Source: Acidobacteriota bacterium (GTDB lineage: Bacteria; Acidobacteriota; Thermoanaerobaculia; Thermoanaerobaculales; Sulfomarinibacteraceae). Taken from it: a stretch of 45,956 nt of DNA. How positions within the stretch are numbered: position 1 is the first letter of the stretch; each line of letters opens with the position of its first letter. The position numbers and the translations under genes are program-made. The notes beneath the pieces are model-generated. The model worked only from the letters and a program-made list of their open reading frames with translations, ran no database searches and had not been told where the DNA came from. Location of the stretch: assembly GCA_013152895.1 (NCBI GenBank), contig JAADFN010000025.1, positions 1-45,956 of the forward strand. The letters run 5' to 3'. Of the stretch, positions 8,545 to 17,650 are shown piece after piece.

Positions 8545-9449
8545 ACGCCCCCGCCATGAATCATGGCCCACGCCGATGGGAGCAAGCTCGCATCGAGTCC
8601 GTCTTGCCCCTGGCACGCGGGCGCCGGGAGATCCGGCAACCTCTGAATCATCGCCCGTTCCAGCATCCAACCATCGACTATATCCGGCCTCATGCCCCCC
8701 TCGGCGGCACACAGGACCGAGATTTCCCCTTCGACCTTCAGGCGTTCACGCAGGTACATCATCGTCAGGTTGAGCTCCCCCGCCACGATCGCTTCGAGCG
8801 GCCTTCCCTGGGGCAACCACTTGGTCCTAAGCAGCTCGATGCGCCCCGTCCGGGTCACCAGGATCGACAGGACGGCGCGGTCGAGATGAACGATCATCGC
8901 CGTTTCAAGAGACTGGGGGACCGCCGCCGAGAGGGCGAACACGCGGGGTGTCACCACCGCCGGCTGCATCCCGGCATCTTCAAATGCGGCCTCCAGCTCG
9001 GCGCAGGCACGATCGAGCACCGCGACGCACACCAGCCTCACTCCATCGTGACCGGAGCGGACCGGGACAACGTCGATCCGAAGCTCCTCCGGCCGCACGG
9101 GCAGCACTTTCTTCAGCCGCCACCTCACGACCTCATCGAGGTCGGCCCGGCGGCGCGGCGGCGTGTCAAGCTCGAGGAGATGGACGCGCACCCATCCCGT
9201 GGGAACGATGACCGTCGGACGGCGTGTCCCGCGCACCTGTTCCTGGAGGCTGGCCAGCAGCGGCTTCAAACGTTCCCGGTCGACCGTCTGCAGGCCCACG
9301 GGGCCAACACCGAGAATCCCAGGCTCCAGAAAGGCGCCCGCACACACGTCCTCCTCCTTCCTGTCGTGGCTGAGCACCGCCAGGCCATCCTCCGCAAGGG
9401 ACCAGGCGGTCCGTGGAGGGGGGGTCGTGAGAAACCGTTCCCATCTCAT
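8541..9449 (-). CDS. pilM: PilM-like actin-fold assembly protein
   Basis: A 302-residue cytoplasmic protein with the weak actin-like pattern of PilM/GspL: early beta strands (TAWSLAEDGLAVLSH), the segment PTVIVPTGWVRVHLLELDTPP, and EVVRWRLKKVLPVRPEELRIDVVPV, which corresponds to the PilM region following the first actin subdomain. Lower similarity than its neighbours and slightly short for PilM (about 350), so it may be a divergent or GspL-cytoplasmic-domain-like form. Position directly upstream of pilN and the ATGA overlaps on both sides support the assignment. It should recruit PilN and couple to the GspE motor. Confidence 0.75.
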   Translation of the reverse strand: MRWERFLTTPPPRTAWSLAEDGLAVLSHDRKEEDVCAGAFLEPGILGVGPVGLQTVDRERLKPLLASLQEQVRGTRRPTVIVPTGWVRVHLLELDTPPRRRADLDEVVRWRLKKVLPVRPEELRIDVVPVRSGHDGVRLVCVAVLDRACAELEAAFEDAGMQPAVVTPRVFALSAAVPQSLETAMIVHLDRAVLSILVTRTGRIELLRTKWLPQGRPLEAIVAGELNLTMMYLRERLKVEGEISVLCAAEGGMRPDIVDGWMLERAMIQRLPDLPAPACQGQDGLDASLLPSAWAMIHGGGV

Positions 9450-11089
9450 TCGACGAACGTCACCTTGTTGACCTCGCGCAGGGTCGTCTCCCCCGCGAAG
9501 ACTTTTTGCAGCGCGATTTCCCTGAGGAACCGCATCCCCTCCGCCTTGGCGGCCCGCTTGATCTCCGCCGCCGACCGCCGCTGCATGATCAGCTCACGGA
9601 TGTTGTCGGAGAGGTTCAAGAGCTCCGAGATGGCACACCGTCCCAAGAAGCCGGTTCCGTTACACTCGACGCATCCCGCCCCCTCGTAGAACGTGAAATC
9701 GGCGTACTGATCCGGCTCCAGCCCCGATTCTTCCAGGAGATCTGGATCAACGTGGACCGGGCGCCTGCACTGGTTGCAGATCTTGCGGACGAGACGTTGG
9801 GCCAGCACGCAGTTGAGCGCCGAAACAAAGTTGTAGAGATCGACTTTCATGTTGAGAAACCGTCCGAGCACGTCGACCACGTTGTTTGCGTGCACGGTCG
9901 TGAACACGAGGTGCCCGGTCAAGGCGGACTGGACCGCGATCTGCGCCGTTTCGGCATCGCGGATCTCACCAATCATGATCTTGTCAGGGTCGTGCCGGAG
10001 GATGGAGCGCAGGCCGCGCGCGAAGGTCAGTCCCTTCTTCTCGTTGACCGGGATCTGGGTGATGCCGCGAAGCTGGTACTCCACGGGATCCTCGATCGTG
10101 ATGATCTTGTCTTCGGAGCTGACGATCTCGGAAAGACATGCGTACAGCGTTGTCGTTTTCCCGGAGCCAGTCGGACCGGTGACCAGGACCATGCCGTACG
10201 GCTCGCGGATGAACTTCCTCAACTGCCGCTTGGTCTCCTCGTCGAAGCCGAGGACGTCGAGGCTCAGCGTTTTGAACTCGGCGTTGGCCGATTCCTTGTC
10301 GAGAATCCTGATCACCGCATCTTCGCCGTGCACGGTGGGCATGATCGACACGCGGAAATCGATCGTTCTTCCCGAGAACCTGACCTTGAAGCGGCCGTCC
10401 TGGGGAATCCGTTTCTCGGCGATATCGAGCTCCGACATCACCTTGATCCGGCTAATAATCGTGGAATGGTGGCGCTTGTCGATCGGCTCCATCGCCTGGT
10501 AGAGCACCCCGTCGATCCGGTACTTGACCACGACCTCGCGATCGCGGGTCTCGATATGGATGTCGGAGGCGCGGCGTTGAATCGCGTTGAAGAGGATCGA
10601 GTCGACCAGGCGGATCATCGGCGACGCATCCGCCGTGATGCGGTCGATCGACAGGACCTCTTCCCCGTCCTCCGCCTCCTGGACGAGCTGCATCCGGAAA
10701 CCCTCGGTCGCCTCGTCGAGCACCCGTTGGGTCGACTCCGACTTTTCGAGGATGTCGGAGATACGGTGAGCCGGTCCAACCGACAGCTCGAGCGGGCGCG
10801 CGAGAATCATCTCCAGCTCGTTGACCATCACGACGTCCGAAGGATCCGCCATCACGACCTGCAACACTCCGTCGACCGCCCGCATCGGAACGAACTGGTA
10901 CCTCAGCATCGTCTCGACGGGGATCGTCCTGAAAAGATCGGGGTCCACGTGAAACTCATCCAGAGGATCGAACGGGAGGCCGAGCTTCTGCGCAAGCTCC
11001 TGGGCTGCAGCAAGGCCTTCGTCCTGGTGGACGCTGGCCTCCGAGCTCAGCATAGCGACAGCTCTGTCAAGATCTCGATCGTCGGTCAT
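9446..11089 (-). CDS. gspE: Secretion/pilus assembly ATPase GspE/PilB
   Basis: Hexameric cytoplasmic ATPase that powers pseudopilus extension. In the 547-residue protein residues about 35-140 are the N1E-type domain. The catalytic core has Walker A GPTGSGKTT at 305-313, an Asp box (IITIEDPVEYQL), Walker B IMIGEIRD at 371-378 and the His box (TGHLVFTTVHANN). The tetracysteine zinc module C438/C441 ... C473/C476 is intact. All catalytic residues are present and length is normal. ATG at 11089; the stop overlaps pilM by 4 bases, and gspF ends 9 bases upstream. Confidence 0.96.
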   Translation of the reverse strand: MTDDRDLDRAVAMLSSEASVHQDEGLAAAQELAQKLGLPFDPLDEFHVDPDLFRTIPVETMLRYQFVPMRAVDGVLQVVMADPSDVVMVNELEMILARPLELSVGPAHRISDILEKSESTQRVLDEATEGFRMQLVQEAEDGEEVLSIDRITADASPMIRLVDSILFNAIQRRASDIHIETRDREVVVKYRIDGVLYQAMEPIDKRHHSTIISRIKVMSELDIAEKRIPQDGRFKVRFSGRTIDFRVSIMPTVHGEDAVIRILDKESANAEFKTLSLDVLGFDEETKRQLRKFIREPYGMVLVTGPTGSGKTTTLYACLSEIVSSEDKIITIEDPVEYQLRGITQIPVNEKKGLTFARGLRSILRHDPDKIMIGEIRDAETAQIAVQSALTGHLVFTTVHANNVVDVLGRFLNMKVDLYNFVSALNCVLAQRLVRKICNQCRRPVHVDPDLLEESGLEPDQYADFTFYEGAGCVECNGTGFLGRCAISELLNLSDNIRELIMQRRSAAEIKRAAKAEGMRFLREIALQKVFAGETTLREVNKVTFVE

Positions 11090-11098
11090 GATGCTCCC

Positions 11099-12307
11099 TC
11101 ATCGCATCCGGCTCGCCATGGTCAACAGAGGATAATAGACTGACAGAAGCAAACCTGCCACAACCACGCCCATGAACACCAGTACCGCCGGCTCCATCAG
11201 GGTAACGATCCTGTTGAGAACAAAGTCGATCTCTTCATCGATAAACTCCGACGTGGTGGTCAACAGCTCGGCGAGAGCGCCCGTCGATTCCCCCACACGC
11301 ATCATCGCCAGCGCCAGCGGTGGGGCCAACCCCGTCTTCTCGATCGAATCCGATAGCGATTGTCCCTCCCTGACCTCGGGCACACAGCCCAGGAGACGCT
11401 CGGAGACGTAGCCGTTGCTGACCGACGTCGATGCGGTTTCCAGCGCCGGCACCATGGGCAACCCCCCGGCCAGCATCACGCCCAGGGACCTGGTGAACTG
11501 TGACAGCGCAACCATGTGGACCAGCCGCCCGACGATCGGAATTTTCAGCTTGAGACGGTCGATCGTCCGGCGGCCGCGCGACGTTCTCGCCCACAAACGC
11601 GCGCCCCAAACGATCCCGATGACCCCGCCCACAATGAACACGACATCGTCGTGCATGGTTTTGGCCAGGGAGATCACGATCCGTGTCGGAAGCGGCAGCT
11701 CGGCGCCCATCTGGGCGTAAAAATCGGTAAAGTTCGGGATCACGTACGTCATCAGGAGAAAGACCAGGCCGATGGCAAGCACGATCAGCACCGCCGGATA
11801 CGTCAGGGCGCCGACGATCTTCTTGCGGGCCGATTCCATCAGCTTCTGATACGCCGTGAACCGCTCCAGCATCCCGTCGAGGTCTCCCGAGCGTTCTCCG
11901 GCGCGGAGCGTGTTGGCATACAGTGGGGGAAAGGCATCCCCCATCGAGCGGAAGGCGTCCGACAGCGAGATCCCGGTCGTCACCTGCTGGTATACCTTGT
12001 TCAAAACCGCTTTGAAGTGGGGGTTCGTTTGCTGAGCTGCCAGCAGCTCGAGCGACTGAGCCAGCGGGAGGCCGGCGCGTACGAGCGTCCTGAGCTGCGT
12101 ATTGAAGATCATGAAATCCTGGTTTGGAATCTTCTCCCGCTTGCCGAAGAATGGGAGACGAAGCCGCAGCCGCGGGGCCGCGATCGAGAAGACGTGGAAG
12201 CCCTCGGTCTCCAGCTCGCGCCTGAGGGCGTCGGCGGAGAGCGCAATTCTCTTCTGCTCCACCACCGATCCATCCGGCCTCCCGAGACGGCAGACGAACT
12301 GCGGCAT
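11099..12307 (-). CDS. gspF: Inner-membrane platform protein GspF/PilC
   Basis: A 402-residue polytopic protein. Two tandem T2SSF domains are visible: the first opens QDFMIFNTQLRTLVRAGLPLAQSLELL and the second has LSQFTRSLGVMLAGGLPMVPALE. Each is followed by the helix/GLAPPLALAMMRVGE-type core, with transmembrane segments near residues 165-190, 215-235 and 370-395. It anchors the GspE ATPase at the inner membrane and is thought to move pseudopilin subunits into the growing fibre. Full-length and well conserved. ATG at 12307; a 46-base gap separates it from the frameshifted gene upstream. Confidence 0.95.
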   Translation of the reverse strand: MPQFVCRLGRPDGSVVEQKRIALSADALRRELETEGFHVFSIAAPRLRLRLPFFGKREKIPNQDFMIFNTQLRTLVRAGLPLAQSLELLAAQQTNPHFKAVLNKVYQQVTTGISLSDAFRSMGDAFPPLYANTLRAGERSGDLDGMLERFTAYQKLMESARKKIVGALTYPAVLIVLAIGLVFLLMTYVIPNFTDFYAQMGAELPLPTRIVISLAKTMHDDVVFIVGGVIGIVWGARLWARTSRGRRTIDRLKLKIPIVGRLVHMVALSQFTRSLGVMLAGGLPMVPALETASTSVSNGYVSERLLGCVPEVREGQSLSDSIEKTGLAPPLALAMMRVGESTGALAELLTTTSEFIDEEIDFVLNRIVTLMEPAVLVFMGVVVAGLLLSVYYPLLTMASRMR

Positions 12308-13643: not shown

Positions 13644-14279
13644 TCAGCCCCTCCCGTTCCCGGGCAGGTACTCCGGAAACCTCCGCTCGAGCTCCCTCTT
13701 CAGAGCCCGGCGGGCATGGAAGATATGGTTGCGGACGGTGGCAGCCGAGCACCCCAGCACCCGAGCCACCTCCGACGTGTCGAGACCCTCGACCTCGCGA
13801 AGGATGAAAGCGGCCCGTTGCTGGGGGCTCAGGCAGCTCACGAGCCGGTTGAGCACCTGCTCCACCTCCCGTTCGCTGGCCAGCGCGGCCGAGCCGCCCA
13901 GAGCGGGCGCCGGACGCAGCCAGACCGCCCCGCCCTCGTGGTGGGCGCGTTCCCGGCTCGACCGGGCGCGAATGACATCGATCGTTAAATTGGTGGCGAT
14001 CCGGTAGACCCACGTTGAAAAGCTCCATCTGCGGTCGTACTTCCCCAACCGCTGCCACGCTCGAAGCCATACCATCTGGACCACGTCCCACGCTTCCTCC
14101 TCATCGCCCAGCATCCGAGAAACGATGCGATGCAACCCTCCCGAATATCGTTGGACGAGGGCGCCGAACGCCCCCTCGTCGCCGTTCCTCGCCGCCTCGG
14201 CAAGCTCGCGATCATCCATCGGCTTGTGCTCCCGGCCCTCGCGGCGTGCAACAACAATTTTCAGACGGTTCTTCGCCAT
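13644..14279 (-). CDS. ECF-family RNA polymerase sigma factor
   Basis: A 211-residue protein with region 2 (ALVQRYSGGLHRIVSRMLGD, EEEAWDVVQMVWLRAW, FSTWVYRIATNLTIDVIR) and region 4 helix-turn-helix (LSPQQRAAFILREVEGLDTSEVARVLGCSAATVRNHIFHAR). It should direct transcription of a small regulon controlled by the adjacent anti-sigma factor, possibly including its own operon. ATG at 14279 has a GGAAGGGG stretch just upstream; ATG at 14219 (MDDRELAEAA) is a shorter alternative that still keeps region 2 whole. First gene of the minus-strand operon. Confidence 0.92.
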   Translation of the reverse strand: MAKNRLKIVVARREGREHKPMDDRELAEAARNGDEGAFGALVQRYSGGLHRIVSRMLGDEEEAWDVVQMVWLRAWQRLGKYDRRWSFSTWVYRIATNLTIDVIRARSSRERAHHEGGAVWLRPAPALGGSAALASEREVEQVLNRLVSCLSPQQRAAFILREVEGLDTSEVARVLGCSAATVRNHIFHARRALKRELERRFPEYLPGNGRG

Positions 14280-14619
14280 CGCCCCTTCCTCTTCTTCCTC
14301 TGCTCAATACGGAGCAAACACTCCGGGCGTTGAGGCAGGGACCGCCATCGTACCACCGGATCACGCCGGTCTCCCGGCACATCGACACCCGGGAAGGTCG
14401 GGTTGTGGCAGGGGATGCGGTCAACGGATAACCGGGAACGGTCCCGCGCGCGGCGCGAGGCCGGTCCGCAACGAGATGAGCGGCCATTCCGCCCGGAGAC
14501 CGTCGAGAGGCCGAGCGCAGGCTGCTCGGCCCGGTATCCTGCGAGGGTACGTGGCCGAGCACGGCTCCGGGCCACGGTACAATGGCCGCGTGTGCAGCGG
14601 GAAACGAAGGGAAAACGCC
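14280..14619. other. Divergent intergenic region with imperfect inverted repeat
   Basis: This 340-base gap separates the sigma factor operon (leftwards) from the selenoprotein gene (rightwards). It holds an imperfect dyad at 14303-14334: arms CTCAA and TTGAG outside, CGGAG and CTCCG inside, centred on CAAACA. This dyad lies 24-55 bases upstream of the sigma factor start and could be an operator or a leader hairpin; that is inference. A TACAAT hexamer at 14578-14583 could be a -10 element for the selenoprotein gene, but no convincing -35 goes with it. I see no credible gene in the stretch. Confidence 0.4.
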
Positions 14620-14865
14620 GTGCGAATCATCATCGAATACTGCGTCGTGTGAAATTACAAGCCCCGGGCCGCCAGTTTGGCGGCCGAGATCGAACGGCAG
14701 CTGGGGGAGGACGTCGAGATCGTGCGCGGCAGCACCGGCGCGTTCAACGTCATCGTCGATGATCGCCTGATCTTCTCGAAACATCAAAGTGGGCGTTTCC
14801 CCGATTCCGGTGAGATCATCGCCACGATCCGGCGGATGGCTGGAGACGCTCACCCCTCGTCATGA
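14620..14865 (+). CDS. SelW-like (Rdx family) selenoprotein, in-frame TGA read as selenocysteine
   Basis: GTG at 14620 starts VRIIIEYCVV, then TGA (14650-14652), then NYKPRAASLAAEIERQL and on to the TGA stop at 14863. With the TGA read as Sec the protein has 81 residues and a redox motif C8-x-x-U11, exactly where SelW/Rdx proteins carry CxxC or CxxU in a thioredoxin-like fold. The remainder fits the family: VEIVRGSTGAFNVIVDD, LIFSKHQSGRFPDSGEI. An AAGGG stretch lies about 9 bases before the GTG. A hairpin fitting the bacterial SECIS rules follows the TGA. Without Sec, translation would end after 10 residues. The role is probably a small thiol/selenol oxidoreductase. No Sec synthesis genes are in the window. 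The 3' end overlaps the convergent nuclease gene by 16 bases. Confidence 0.85.
14667..14685 (+). promoter_or_regulatory. Bacterial SECIS-like hairpin
   Basis: Perfect 7-bp stem (GGCCGCC at 14667-14673 with GGCGGCC at 14679-14685) and a five-base loop AGTTT. The loop begins 21 bases after the in-frame TGA and has G as its second base. Published bSECIS models ask for a small apical loop with a G among its first two bases at roughly 16-37 bases from the UGA, so this element qualifies. It would be bound by SelB to deliver Sec-tRNA. It lies inside the coding sequence, as bacterial SECIS elements do. Confidence 0.75.
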
Positions 14866-15818
14866 TCCAGCCGGCGGCGGTACACGTACCGCTCCAAGAT
14901 CGGCGAGTAGGCCGTCCACGCTTCCTGGGTCTCTCCCCCATCGTGGATCGCCTGGAGCATGCCGGTGATCTTTGCGTCAAGATTATCGGTCATGTGGACG
15001 AGCAGGGCCTCCGGCGTCTTGGGGCGCCGCGGCGAGCCAAACGCGTATTCCCCGTGGTGCGCGAGCAGGATGTGGAGGAGCTGCCGCCTCGTCTCCGCGG
15101 GAAAGCTCTCGAGCTCCCCGATCTTGCGTTCGACGTAGAGCACTTCCATCGGCAGATGCCCGAGGAGGCGCCCGTCGTCCGTGTACTCGATCGAGGGACC
15201 AAGCTCCAGCTCCCAGATCTTCCCGAGATCGTGGAGCACGGCGCCGGCCACGACCAGATCGCGGTCAAGATGATAGTGTTCGGCGAGCATCTTGGCCGCG
15301 GTCGTCATCGAGACGGTGTGCTCGAGCAGGCCGGAGCGGAACGCGTGATGCATGGAGCGGGCCGCTGGCGCGGTGCGAAACCGTTGCGCAACGTCGGGGT
15401 CCGCGAAGATTCTCGAGAGGAGTTGCCGGAGATGCTCGTCGGCGATCCCCTCGATGAGCCCCGTCAACCGCTCCCACAGGATACCGGGGTCGATCTCGGA
15501 TGCGCGCACGAACATCGTCTCGTCGACCTGCTCCGGGGGGACTGCCTGTGCGTTACGAATCACGATCTGGAGCCGCTGGTTGTACTTCTGGACCTGTCCC
15601 TTGATGTGCACGACGCGACCGGGCCGGCACACAGCGGCGATGTTCTCGACGCCCTCCCAGACGAGCCCCGCGACCTGGCCCGTCCGGTCAGCCAGGCTCA
15701 ACGCAAGGTAGTTGCCGCCCCCACGCCGTTTCCGCACATCGGCAGAACGGACGACGTACGATTCGGCGACCTCGGTTCCAGGACGAAGATCCTTGATCCA
15801 CAGCCTGGCGTCAGCCAT
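14850..15818 (-). CDS. YhaM-like 3'-5' exoribonuclease (OB-fold plus HD domain)
   Basis: A 322-residue protein. Residues about 12-95 form an OB-fold nucleic-acid-binding domain (YLALSLADRTGQVAGLVWEG, VVHIKGQVQKYNQRLQIVI), and about 150-290 an HD hydrolase domain with H167, H196-D197 (AVLHDLGK) and a later LAHHGEYAFGSPRRPKTPEA segment. The combination and length are those of YhaM/CBF1-type 3'-5' exoribonucleases that trim single-stranded RNA or DNA in the cytoplasm. The start is 5 bases upstream of the surA stop and the 3' end overlaps the selenoprotein gene on the opposite strand. Confidence 0.88.
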   Translation of the reverse strand: MADARLWIKDLRPGTEVAESYVVRSADVRKRRGGGNYLALSLADRTGQVAGLVWEGVENIAAVCRPGRVVHIKGQVQKYNQRLQIVIRNAQAVPPEQVDETMFVRASEIDPGILWERLTGLIEGIADEHLRQLLSRIFADPDVAQRFRTAPAARSMHHAFRSGLLEHTVSMTTAAKMLAEHYHLDRDLVVAGAVLHDLGKIWELELGPSIEYTDDGRLLGHLPMEVLYVERKIGELESFPAETRRQLLHILLAHHGEYAFGSPRRPKTPEALLVHMTDNLDAKITGMLQAIHDGGETQEAWTAYSPILERYVYRRRLDHDEG

Positions 15819-16800
15819 CGGTCTCGCCCCGGAGAATCTTGTCCAGAAGGTCCTTGTGGATTTCCACGAGGTACTGCTTCTTCAGGCTATTGATCAATCC
15901 GTCCGTCTGTTCCTGGTACCTCTTGCGCGAGACTTCCCTCCGGATCTGTTCCTCGACCTTGGAAAACGGCTCATACCCCGCAGGCGTCCGCGTGACCAGG
16001 CGGATGACCTGAAACCCCCCAGCCGTTGGAATCGGGTCCGTGATCTGGCCGGCTTTCAGGCCCACGATCGCATCGCGAACCTCGGCGCGAAGATCCCCGA
16101 CGGGGATATCGCCCAGATCCTGGATCGCCACTCCGGCCAGGGTGGCCTCGGCCTTGAGATCGGCGCCGTTGCGAACGCGGCTCACCAGGCCCCGCACGCG
16201 GTTGATCACCTCCTGGCGGCCCTTCGCCGTATCCGACACGGGGAAGAACAGTTGCTCGAGGTGGACCTTCTCGGGCCTCCTCCACTTCGCCTTTTCCTTC
16301 TCGTAGACCTGCCGCAGCTCCTCGGTCGTGATCTGGCTTGGCTTGATCTCCGATTGGAGGACCCGTTGCGACAACATGTTCTGCCGGTACCGCTCGCGAA
16401 GCATCGCCTCCGTCAAGCCCGCGCTCTTGAGGGCTTCACGAAACGCCTGGTCGCTCGCCAGGTGATTACGCTTCTTGAGCGCCTCGATCGCCCGGTCGAT
16501 GTCCTTCTTGCTCACCGTGAGCTTCTTCTCCGTGGCGCGCTCCAGGAGAATGTCCTGCTCCACCATCGAGTTGAAGAGGTTGTGGGCAAACGTGTCGAAT
16601 TCCTTCGGCGTCAGTCTCTTGGGGAGCTGAGCCGCCTCTTGCGCCAGCCTCTTCTTGAAATCGCTGATCGTGATGATCCGATCGTTGATCCGCGCCAGGA
16701 TCCCTTCAACGAGGACTTTCTGACCCGCCCCGGCAACAGCTGTTCCCAACAGCATCACCACAACACTCATGAGTATCAACGCCTTACTTCTTCGAATCAT
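15811..16800 (-). CDS. SurA-like periplasmic peptidyl-prolyl isomerase/chaperone
   Basis: A 329-residue exported protein. Signal peptide MIRRSKALILMSVVVMLLGTAVAGA; SurA-type N-domain (VLVEGILARINDRIITISDFKKRL, about 30-150); one parvulin PPIC domain (about 175-265: EKVHLEQLFFPVSDT to GDIPVGDLRAEVRDAI, GGFQVIRLV); C-terminal helix (FSKVEEQIRREVSRKRYQEQ). It helps fold outer-membrane proteins, in keeping with the diderm envelope. ATG at 16800 was chosen because the signal peptide begins there. It overlaps the upstream ppiC-like gene by 17 bases and the downstream nuclease by 8. Confidence 0.88.
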   Translation of the reverse strand: MIRRSKALILMSVVVMLLGTAVAGAGQKVLVEGILARINDRIITISDFKKRLAQEAAQLPKRLTPKEFDTFAHNLFNSMVEQDILLERATEKKLTVSKKDIDRAIEALKKRNHLASDQAFREALKSAGLTEAMLRERYRQNMLSQRVLQSEIKPSQITTEELRQVYEKEKAKWRRPEKVHLEQLFFPVSDTAKGRQEVINRVRGLVSRVRNGADLKAEATLAGVAIQDLGDIPVGDLRAEVRDAIVGLKAGQITDPIPTAGGFQVIRLVTRTPAGYEPFSKVEEQIRREVSRKRYQEQTDGLINSLKKQYLVEIHKDLLDKILRGETDG

Positions 16801-17650
16801 GCTTTGCCTCCGCGTAACGCCCACTGTACGCAAACCACAGGTGGTTCTGAAAAACTCGAACACCGATGTCGCCGGCCAGCCGGTCCACGCATGCGCGCAG
16901 ATGCTTCTGACGCAACTGTGCCGCCATATCCCGTCTGACTTCGTTCTCCGTCCGCCGGAGATCCGGATGACCTGGCGGGATTCTCTCCAGCACTTGAAAA
17001 ATGTGGTACCCGGCCGGGCTGCGCACCGGTCCGGAAATCTCCTTGGCATGCAGGGCGAATACAACGTGCTCGAGCTCTGGCGGCAACGTTCCCTTGGCGA
17101 TGATACCAAGGTTGCCACCGTCAGCTGCATTTGGCGCCAGGCTCATCTTCCGTGAAACCGTGACGAAATCCTCGCCATTCCGGAGCCGTTTCTCAGCCGC
17201 AAGAGCCTGAGCCCGCGTCGCCAGGAGCATCTGGCGGACGCGCACGCGCTCCGGCTCCACCTGGCGCATCCGCCGGGCAACTTCCAGCTTGACGAGCGCA
17301 GGATCCGGCAGGGGCGATGGACCGCACACGCCGTCGAGCAGGCTCCGCACCACGGCCGATCTCCTGCCTGGGTTGACCGGAATGTCAACCCGCCGATGGC
17401 GCCGCGCCGCCGCCGCAATGACCTCCTGATCGAGAAACTGGTCCAGCAGCCCGCTCGCCAGGCGCCCGTCAACGGATTGCCACGGCTCCTCGAGCACGTA
17501 CGACAAGTATCCCTGGAACGCCTTGATCTCCACCCGATGACCACCGACGGTCGCGATCACATTGACAGATGCTCTCTCCCGGCACCCGGGAGTCACCCAA
17601 ATAGCCAGCGCCACCGTGGCCAGCATCGTACGCACCAGGAATCGTTTCAC
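16784..17650 (-). CDS. PpiC-type peptidyl-prolyl isomerase lipoprotein
   Basis: A 288-residue protein with lipoprotein signal (VKRFLVRTMLATVALAIW, then VTPGC), a SurA-like N-terminal helical part (FQGYLSYVLEEPWQSVDGRLASGLLDQFLDQEVI) and a parvulin domain (RVRVRQMLLATRAQALAAEKRL, GGNLGIIAKGTLPPELEHVVFAL, AGYHIFQVLERIPP). The periplasmic foldase role is shared with the SurA-like protein it overlaps downstream. GTG at 17650 is chosen as the start that gives a clean lipoprotein signal; an open frame extends to 17737 without recognisable content. The 228 bases between it and the next gene hold only a 6-bp GC hairpin at 17801-17817 with no U-tract. Confidence 0.82.
   Translation of the reverse strand: MKRFLVRTMLATVALAIWVTPGCRERASVNVIATVGGHRVEIKAFQGYLSYVLEEPWQSVDGRLASGLLDQFLDQEVIAAAARRHRRVDIPVNPGRRSAVVRSLLDGVCGPSPLPDPALVKLEVARRMRQVEPERVRVRQMLLATRAQALAAEKRLRNGEDFVTVSRKMSLAPNAADGGNLGIIAKGTLPPELEHVVFALHAKEISGPVRSPAGYHIFQVLERIPPGHPDLRRTENEVRRDMAAQLRQKHLRACVDRLAGDIGVRVFQNHLWFAYSGRYAEAKHDSKK

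Follow-up and report, generated by a model that had tools for sequence, protein, structure and literature searches.

The selW-like gene and its surroundings

The window, a stretch of 45,956 nucleotides from contig JAADFN010000025.1 of an Acidobacteriota bacterium, carries a short selW-like frame between the genes of an ECF-type sigma factor and an OB-fold/HD-domain protein (Table 1). The order sigma factor–selW–HD protein–SurA (13644–17130) is common to the same genus, to the same family, and to the Acidobacteria MAG L021. As a rough guide to kinship, IF-2 of the window's genome shows 75% identity to its counterpart in a MAG labelled Acidobacteria bacterium ALJrbin.24 and 57% to that in a Holophagae MAG, which makes the source a probable acidobacterium.

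By direct reading, the frame 14620–14862 opens with GTG and contains a single in-frame TGA as codon 11, and the next in-frame stop closes the gene. This is the arrangement that the first-pass annotation had described, with the TGA in a YCVV-TGA context. With the TGA read as selenocysteine (Sec), the product is VRIIIEYCVV-U-NYKPRAASLAAEIERQLGEDVEIVRGSTGAFNVIVDDRLIFSKHQSGRFPDSGEIIATIRRMAGDAHPSS. The Pfam profile Rdx (PF10262) matches residues 2–71 with an E-value of 3.5e-21 and 75.6 bits against a cut-off of 22.6, and the NCBIfam SelT/W/H models NF041051 (90.6 bits, cut-off 88) and TIGR02174 (62.9 bits, cut-off 34.2) match as well. Such scores are far above chance. The matches span the TGA, and the SelW/Rdx layout that had been suggested for the part past it is borne out. 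An Rdx domain that scores above the curated cut-off and takes up most of its length places the product in the SelW-like (Rdx) family, and the CxxU motif (YCVVU) aligns at the UGA with Cys homologues carrying YCVVC, as in SelW-like selenoproteins.

The GTG is preceded by a weak Shine–Dalgarno-like stretch, which lies within ggaaacgaagggaaaacgcc; relatives carry aaggagg, gggagg, or cggaggt at about this position, and several of these are clear Shine–Dalgarno sequences. The GTG aligns with ATG or GTG starts of relatives at the same residue. The frame is also open well upstream of the GTG, giving an ORF of 175 aa (14125–14652) that ends at the Sec-TGA and has no Pfam match. A naive gene caller could also report this spurious ORF. 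The first-pass annotation had expected ordinary annotation to truncate the gene to 10 codons or to start it at 14677; the 175-aa ORF is a further possible outcome.

Table 1. Features of the selW-like locus and Cys-containing relatives.
Feature	Position	Strand	Description
selW-like selenoprotein gene (predicted)	14620–14865	+	GTG start; 81 aa; stop TGA 14863–14865; Rdx and SelT/W/H profiles
CxxU redox motif (predicted)	14641–14652	+	TGC GTC GTG TGA; C-V-V-U = residues 8–11 (Cys8, Sec11)
Sec-UGA codon (predicted)	14650–14652	+	In-frame TGA kept across the phylum sample; selA, selB, selD, and tRNA-Sec in the genome
Shine–Dalgarno-like stretch	14604–14612	+	Weak, purine-rich, upstream of GTG; direct reading
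Bacterial SECIS hairpin (predicted)	14667–14685	+	Stem 14667–14673/14679–14685; loop AGUUU 14674–14678; covariation, fold energy, published model
ECF-type sigma factor	13644–14279		Divergent from selW
OB-fold/HD-domain protein	14850–15818		Convergent with selW; 16-base tail-to-tail overlap
SurA-like PPIase	15811–17130		
PilB/GspE-like ATPase	9446–11089	-	Type II secretion/type IV pilus
PilC/GspF-like protein	11099–12307	-	Type II secretion/type IV pilus
Nitrospira-labelled Cys relatives	L031:1597–1830; L032:268–501		YCVVCNY; same residues as in the window near the site save Cys for Sec

The SECIS hairpin

The predicted SECIS element features a perfect 7-bp stem, GGCCGCC/GGCGGCC, with the loop AGTTT, and its stem starts at the 15th base past the TGA, exactly where the first-pass annotation had placed it. 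The published bSECIS model asks for a loop of 3–9 nt with a G in the first two positions, a stem of 4–16 bp, a distance of 16–37 nt from the UGA, and an energy of at most -7.5 kcal/mol (PMC13188914). The hairpin satisfies this model with a 5-nt loop carrying G at loop position 2, 7 bp, 21 nt from the UGA, and about -17 to -20 kcal/mol. The fold energy of 14650–14700 is -19.6 kcal/mol, with a z-score of -1.95 against shuffles, which is only mildly unusual on its own because the region is GC-rich. Rfam assigns no RNA family to these bases, which is unsurprising for so short an element lying within a reading frame; the sole match, mir-1275 at 15059, is due to chance.

Since the stem consists of R-A-A and L-A-A codons, three of its pairs have a third codon position on either side, and these positions are largely free to vary. 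Among the 45 TGA-bearing sequences described below, the wobble–wobble pairs Ala1–Ala3 and Ala2–Leu keep standard pairing in every case, where shuffling would give 36.2 and 33.2, and do so via C-G, G-C, U-A, A-U, and G-U combinations. The third and outermost wobble pair, Arg–Ala4, is looser (35/45). Compensation also occurs at the expense of the protein sequence: Ser/Glu codons in L028 give U-A and Thr/Val codons in L036 give A-U where the others have G-C. For the 34 distinct sequences, 93.3% of the stem cells are paired, the covariation score is 0.283 compared with 0.087 when shuffled, and two-sided stem changes number 20 compared with 3.7 in shuffles—a significance that is overstated, since the aligned sequences are related to each other. 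Sliding the register in the same set destroys the covariation signal, and no slide comes near it. RNAalifold recovers essentially the same hairpin unprompted. The hairpin is convincing through conservation and covariation rather than through fold energy alone, and what had been noted as a SECIS-like hairpin now appears as one that covaries across relatives.

Conservation at the TGA site

Relatives with an Rdx match occur in 93 genomes of a phylum sample of 297, the window's own genome being one of the 93. The match contains a TGA in 86 of them; in the remaining seven, it lacks a TGA or begins past the site. The site was read base by base in 47 sequences, comprising the window, 29 phylum loci, and 17 loci from named genomes. 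TGA stands at the CxxU position in 45 of the 47: in the window, in all 29 phylum relatives, and in 15 of the 17 from named genomes. The two exceptions bear the labels Nitrospira and Nitrospirales; they read YCVVCNY, in which Cys occupies the very position of the window's TGA, and the SECIS hairpin is absent from both of these sequences when read base by base. Judged by their sequences, these relatives and the window form a natural Sec/Cys exchange pair. The prediction that homologues would carry Cys or Sec at position 11 agrees with all 47 sequences.

Conservation continues past the TGA, where IFSK, GRFP, and other residues are retained. Compared with a relative of the same genus, 28 of the 53 base differences past the TGA fall on third codon positions, and synonymous changes carry on in the same frame.

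Selenocysteine machinery of the genome

A search of the window's own genome, which the first-pass annotation had proposed for selA, selB, selD, and tRNA-Sec, finds all four, and the organism, hence, ranks as a predicted selenoprotein producer. SelA lies on contig C20 (397.7 bits), SelB on contig C175 (328 bits, with the C-terminal winged helix SelB-wing_3), SelD in its Cys form on contig C112 (361.8 bits), and tRNA-Sec on contig C113 with the anticodon TCA (UCA) and 76.8 bits against a cut-off of 47. The selW-like gene, with one TGA inside, is the only Rdx match in this genome.

A NifS-like cysteine desulfurase forms the N-terminal part of the SelD protein of this genome; the 802-aa frame of the fusion (L009:336–2744, minus strand, contig C112) contains Aminotran_5 and AIRS domains. 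A survey of 2015 reported only two NifS–SelD fusions in prokaryotes (PMC4561486).

Across the phylum sample, a SelA match is present in 80 of the 86 genomes with a TGA-bearing Rdx, compared with 129 of the 211 others (Fisher p 8e-9, in a test that ignores kinship). Three of the six genomes with a TGA-bearing Rdx and no SelA match are only 64–72% complete. The other three, G046, G140, and G193, are listed as 91–100% complete; assembly gaps, a divergent SelA, or a recent loss of Sec synthesis may account for them.

Interpretation and alternative readings

In bacterial selenoproteins, SelB bound to the SECIS delivers Sec-tRNA-Sec at the UGA. The locus very probably represents a stand-alone selW-like gene in which the UGA of codon 11 is decoded as Sec via SelB and the SECIS, yielding a CxxU-containing Rdx/SelW protein of 81 residues. 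SelB with GTP and Sec-tRNA-Sec would bind the hairpin 21 nt 3′ of the UGA and deliver Sec to the ribosome at 14650, and the product would be a small thioredoxin-like protein using the Cys8/Sec11 pair. At the level of sequence, this reading draws support from homology, the exchange of Sec for Cys between relatives, the covariation of the SECIS, and complete machinery; we infer actual Sec insertion, redox chemistry, and physiological partners. Likeness to solved Rdx structures suggests a thioredoxin-like fold and redox activity, and the product most likely acts in the cytosol as a thiol/selenol redox protein. The first-pass reading of the locus as a SelW-like selenoprotein gene is, hence, supported.

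An Rdx gene that encoded Cys and was inactivated when its TGC mutated to TGA would likewise show one in-frame stop in an otherwise intact frame, as a fresh pseudogene does. However, the same TGA is retained in relatives of many genera, the frame beyond it is preserved while many synonymous changes have accrued, and the hairpin covaries, so that a pseudogene is extremely improbable and, in practice, refuted by what these genera have in common: TGA, frame, and hairpin. Readthrough or reassignment of UGA occurs in some bacteria, and the codon might accordingly be read as Trp or by a near-cognate tRNA with no Sec being made. This scarcely fits the presence of SelA, SelB, SelD, and tRNA-Sec next to a conserved SECIS, nor the relatives, in which the replacement is Cys and not Trp, and we give it next to no credence. 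A general reassignment is rejected on the grounds of conservation, Cys alternation, and the Sec machinery; moreover, the selW-like gene itself ends at a TGA, which, thus, also serves as a stop.

It is likewise very unlikely that the true gene is a protein started downstream, at TTG 14677 or later, or the antisense ORF 14212–14853 (minus strand), with the likeness ahead of the TGA arising by chance. Both frames are mechanically open, but the conserved IEYCVV and the CxxU motif lie upstream of 14677, the Rdx match begins at residue 2, and relatives have their start codons at the same residue as the GTG; neither the antisense ORF nor the other-frame ORF has a Pfam match.

Relation to known SelW-like selenoproteins

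Among the selenoproteins of the Sargasso Sea set, SelW-like proteins were the most abundant family; bacterial SelW has an unclear function, with a redox role suggested by the CXXU motif (PMC1088965). SelW-like selenoproteins occur in several groups of bacteria (PMC1794560) and have been noted as missed by annotation (PMC4607533). For SelW of C. jejuni, full-length translation past the UGA was demonstrated by Ribo-seq (ribosome profiling) and proteomics (PMC11955535).

The window protein resembles the bacterial SelW-like selenoproteins, such as C. jejuni SelW and those of the Sargasso Sea set, in its length of approximately 80 aa, the CxxU motif near the N-terminus, the in-frame UGA with a bacterial SECIS hairpin after it but still within the coding sequence, and the occurrence of Cys homologues in some bacteria. 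It differs in its lineage, the Acidobacteriota, and no defining difference was found in this comparison. Among solved structures, human C17orf37 (2ljk) matches over nearly the full length with an E-value of 7.9e-12, as do the bacterial Rdx structures 2fa8 (E-value 3.9e-7), 3dex, 2ojl, and 2obk. We take the latter four to be Cys forms, whereas the window protein would have Sec at the motif position; it is also shorter than all five. The selW-like gene is, thus, almost certainly a well-supported, ordinary addition to the known family of SelW-like selenoproteins.

Five single-family searches of the own genome, Rdx included, bear on its further selenoproteins: the molybdopterin-oxidoreductase (formate dehydrogenase), AhpC/peroxiredoxin, CMD/AhpD, and HesB families yield no TGA-bearing match, and SelD is the Cys form. 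That this lineage has the SelW-like protein as its only or main selenoprotein, with the whole Sec machinery kept chiefly for it, is a speculative and rather unlikely proposition; if true, the lineage would be a test case for the role of SelW.

The finding changes no principle, as SelW-like selenoproteins, their SECIS elements, and their being missed by annotation have already been described (PMC1088965, PMC1794560, PMC4607533). It illustrates that a real gene would be lost or truncated where annotation treats TGA only as a stop, and it contributes, from little-studied bacteria, a well-documented group of SelW selenoproteins whose in-frame SECIS covaries.
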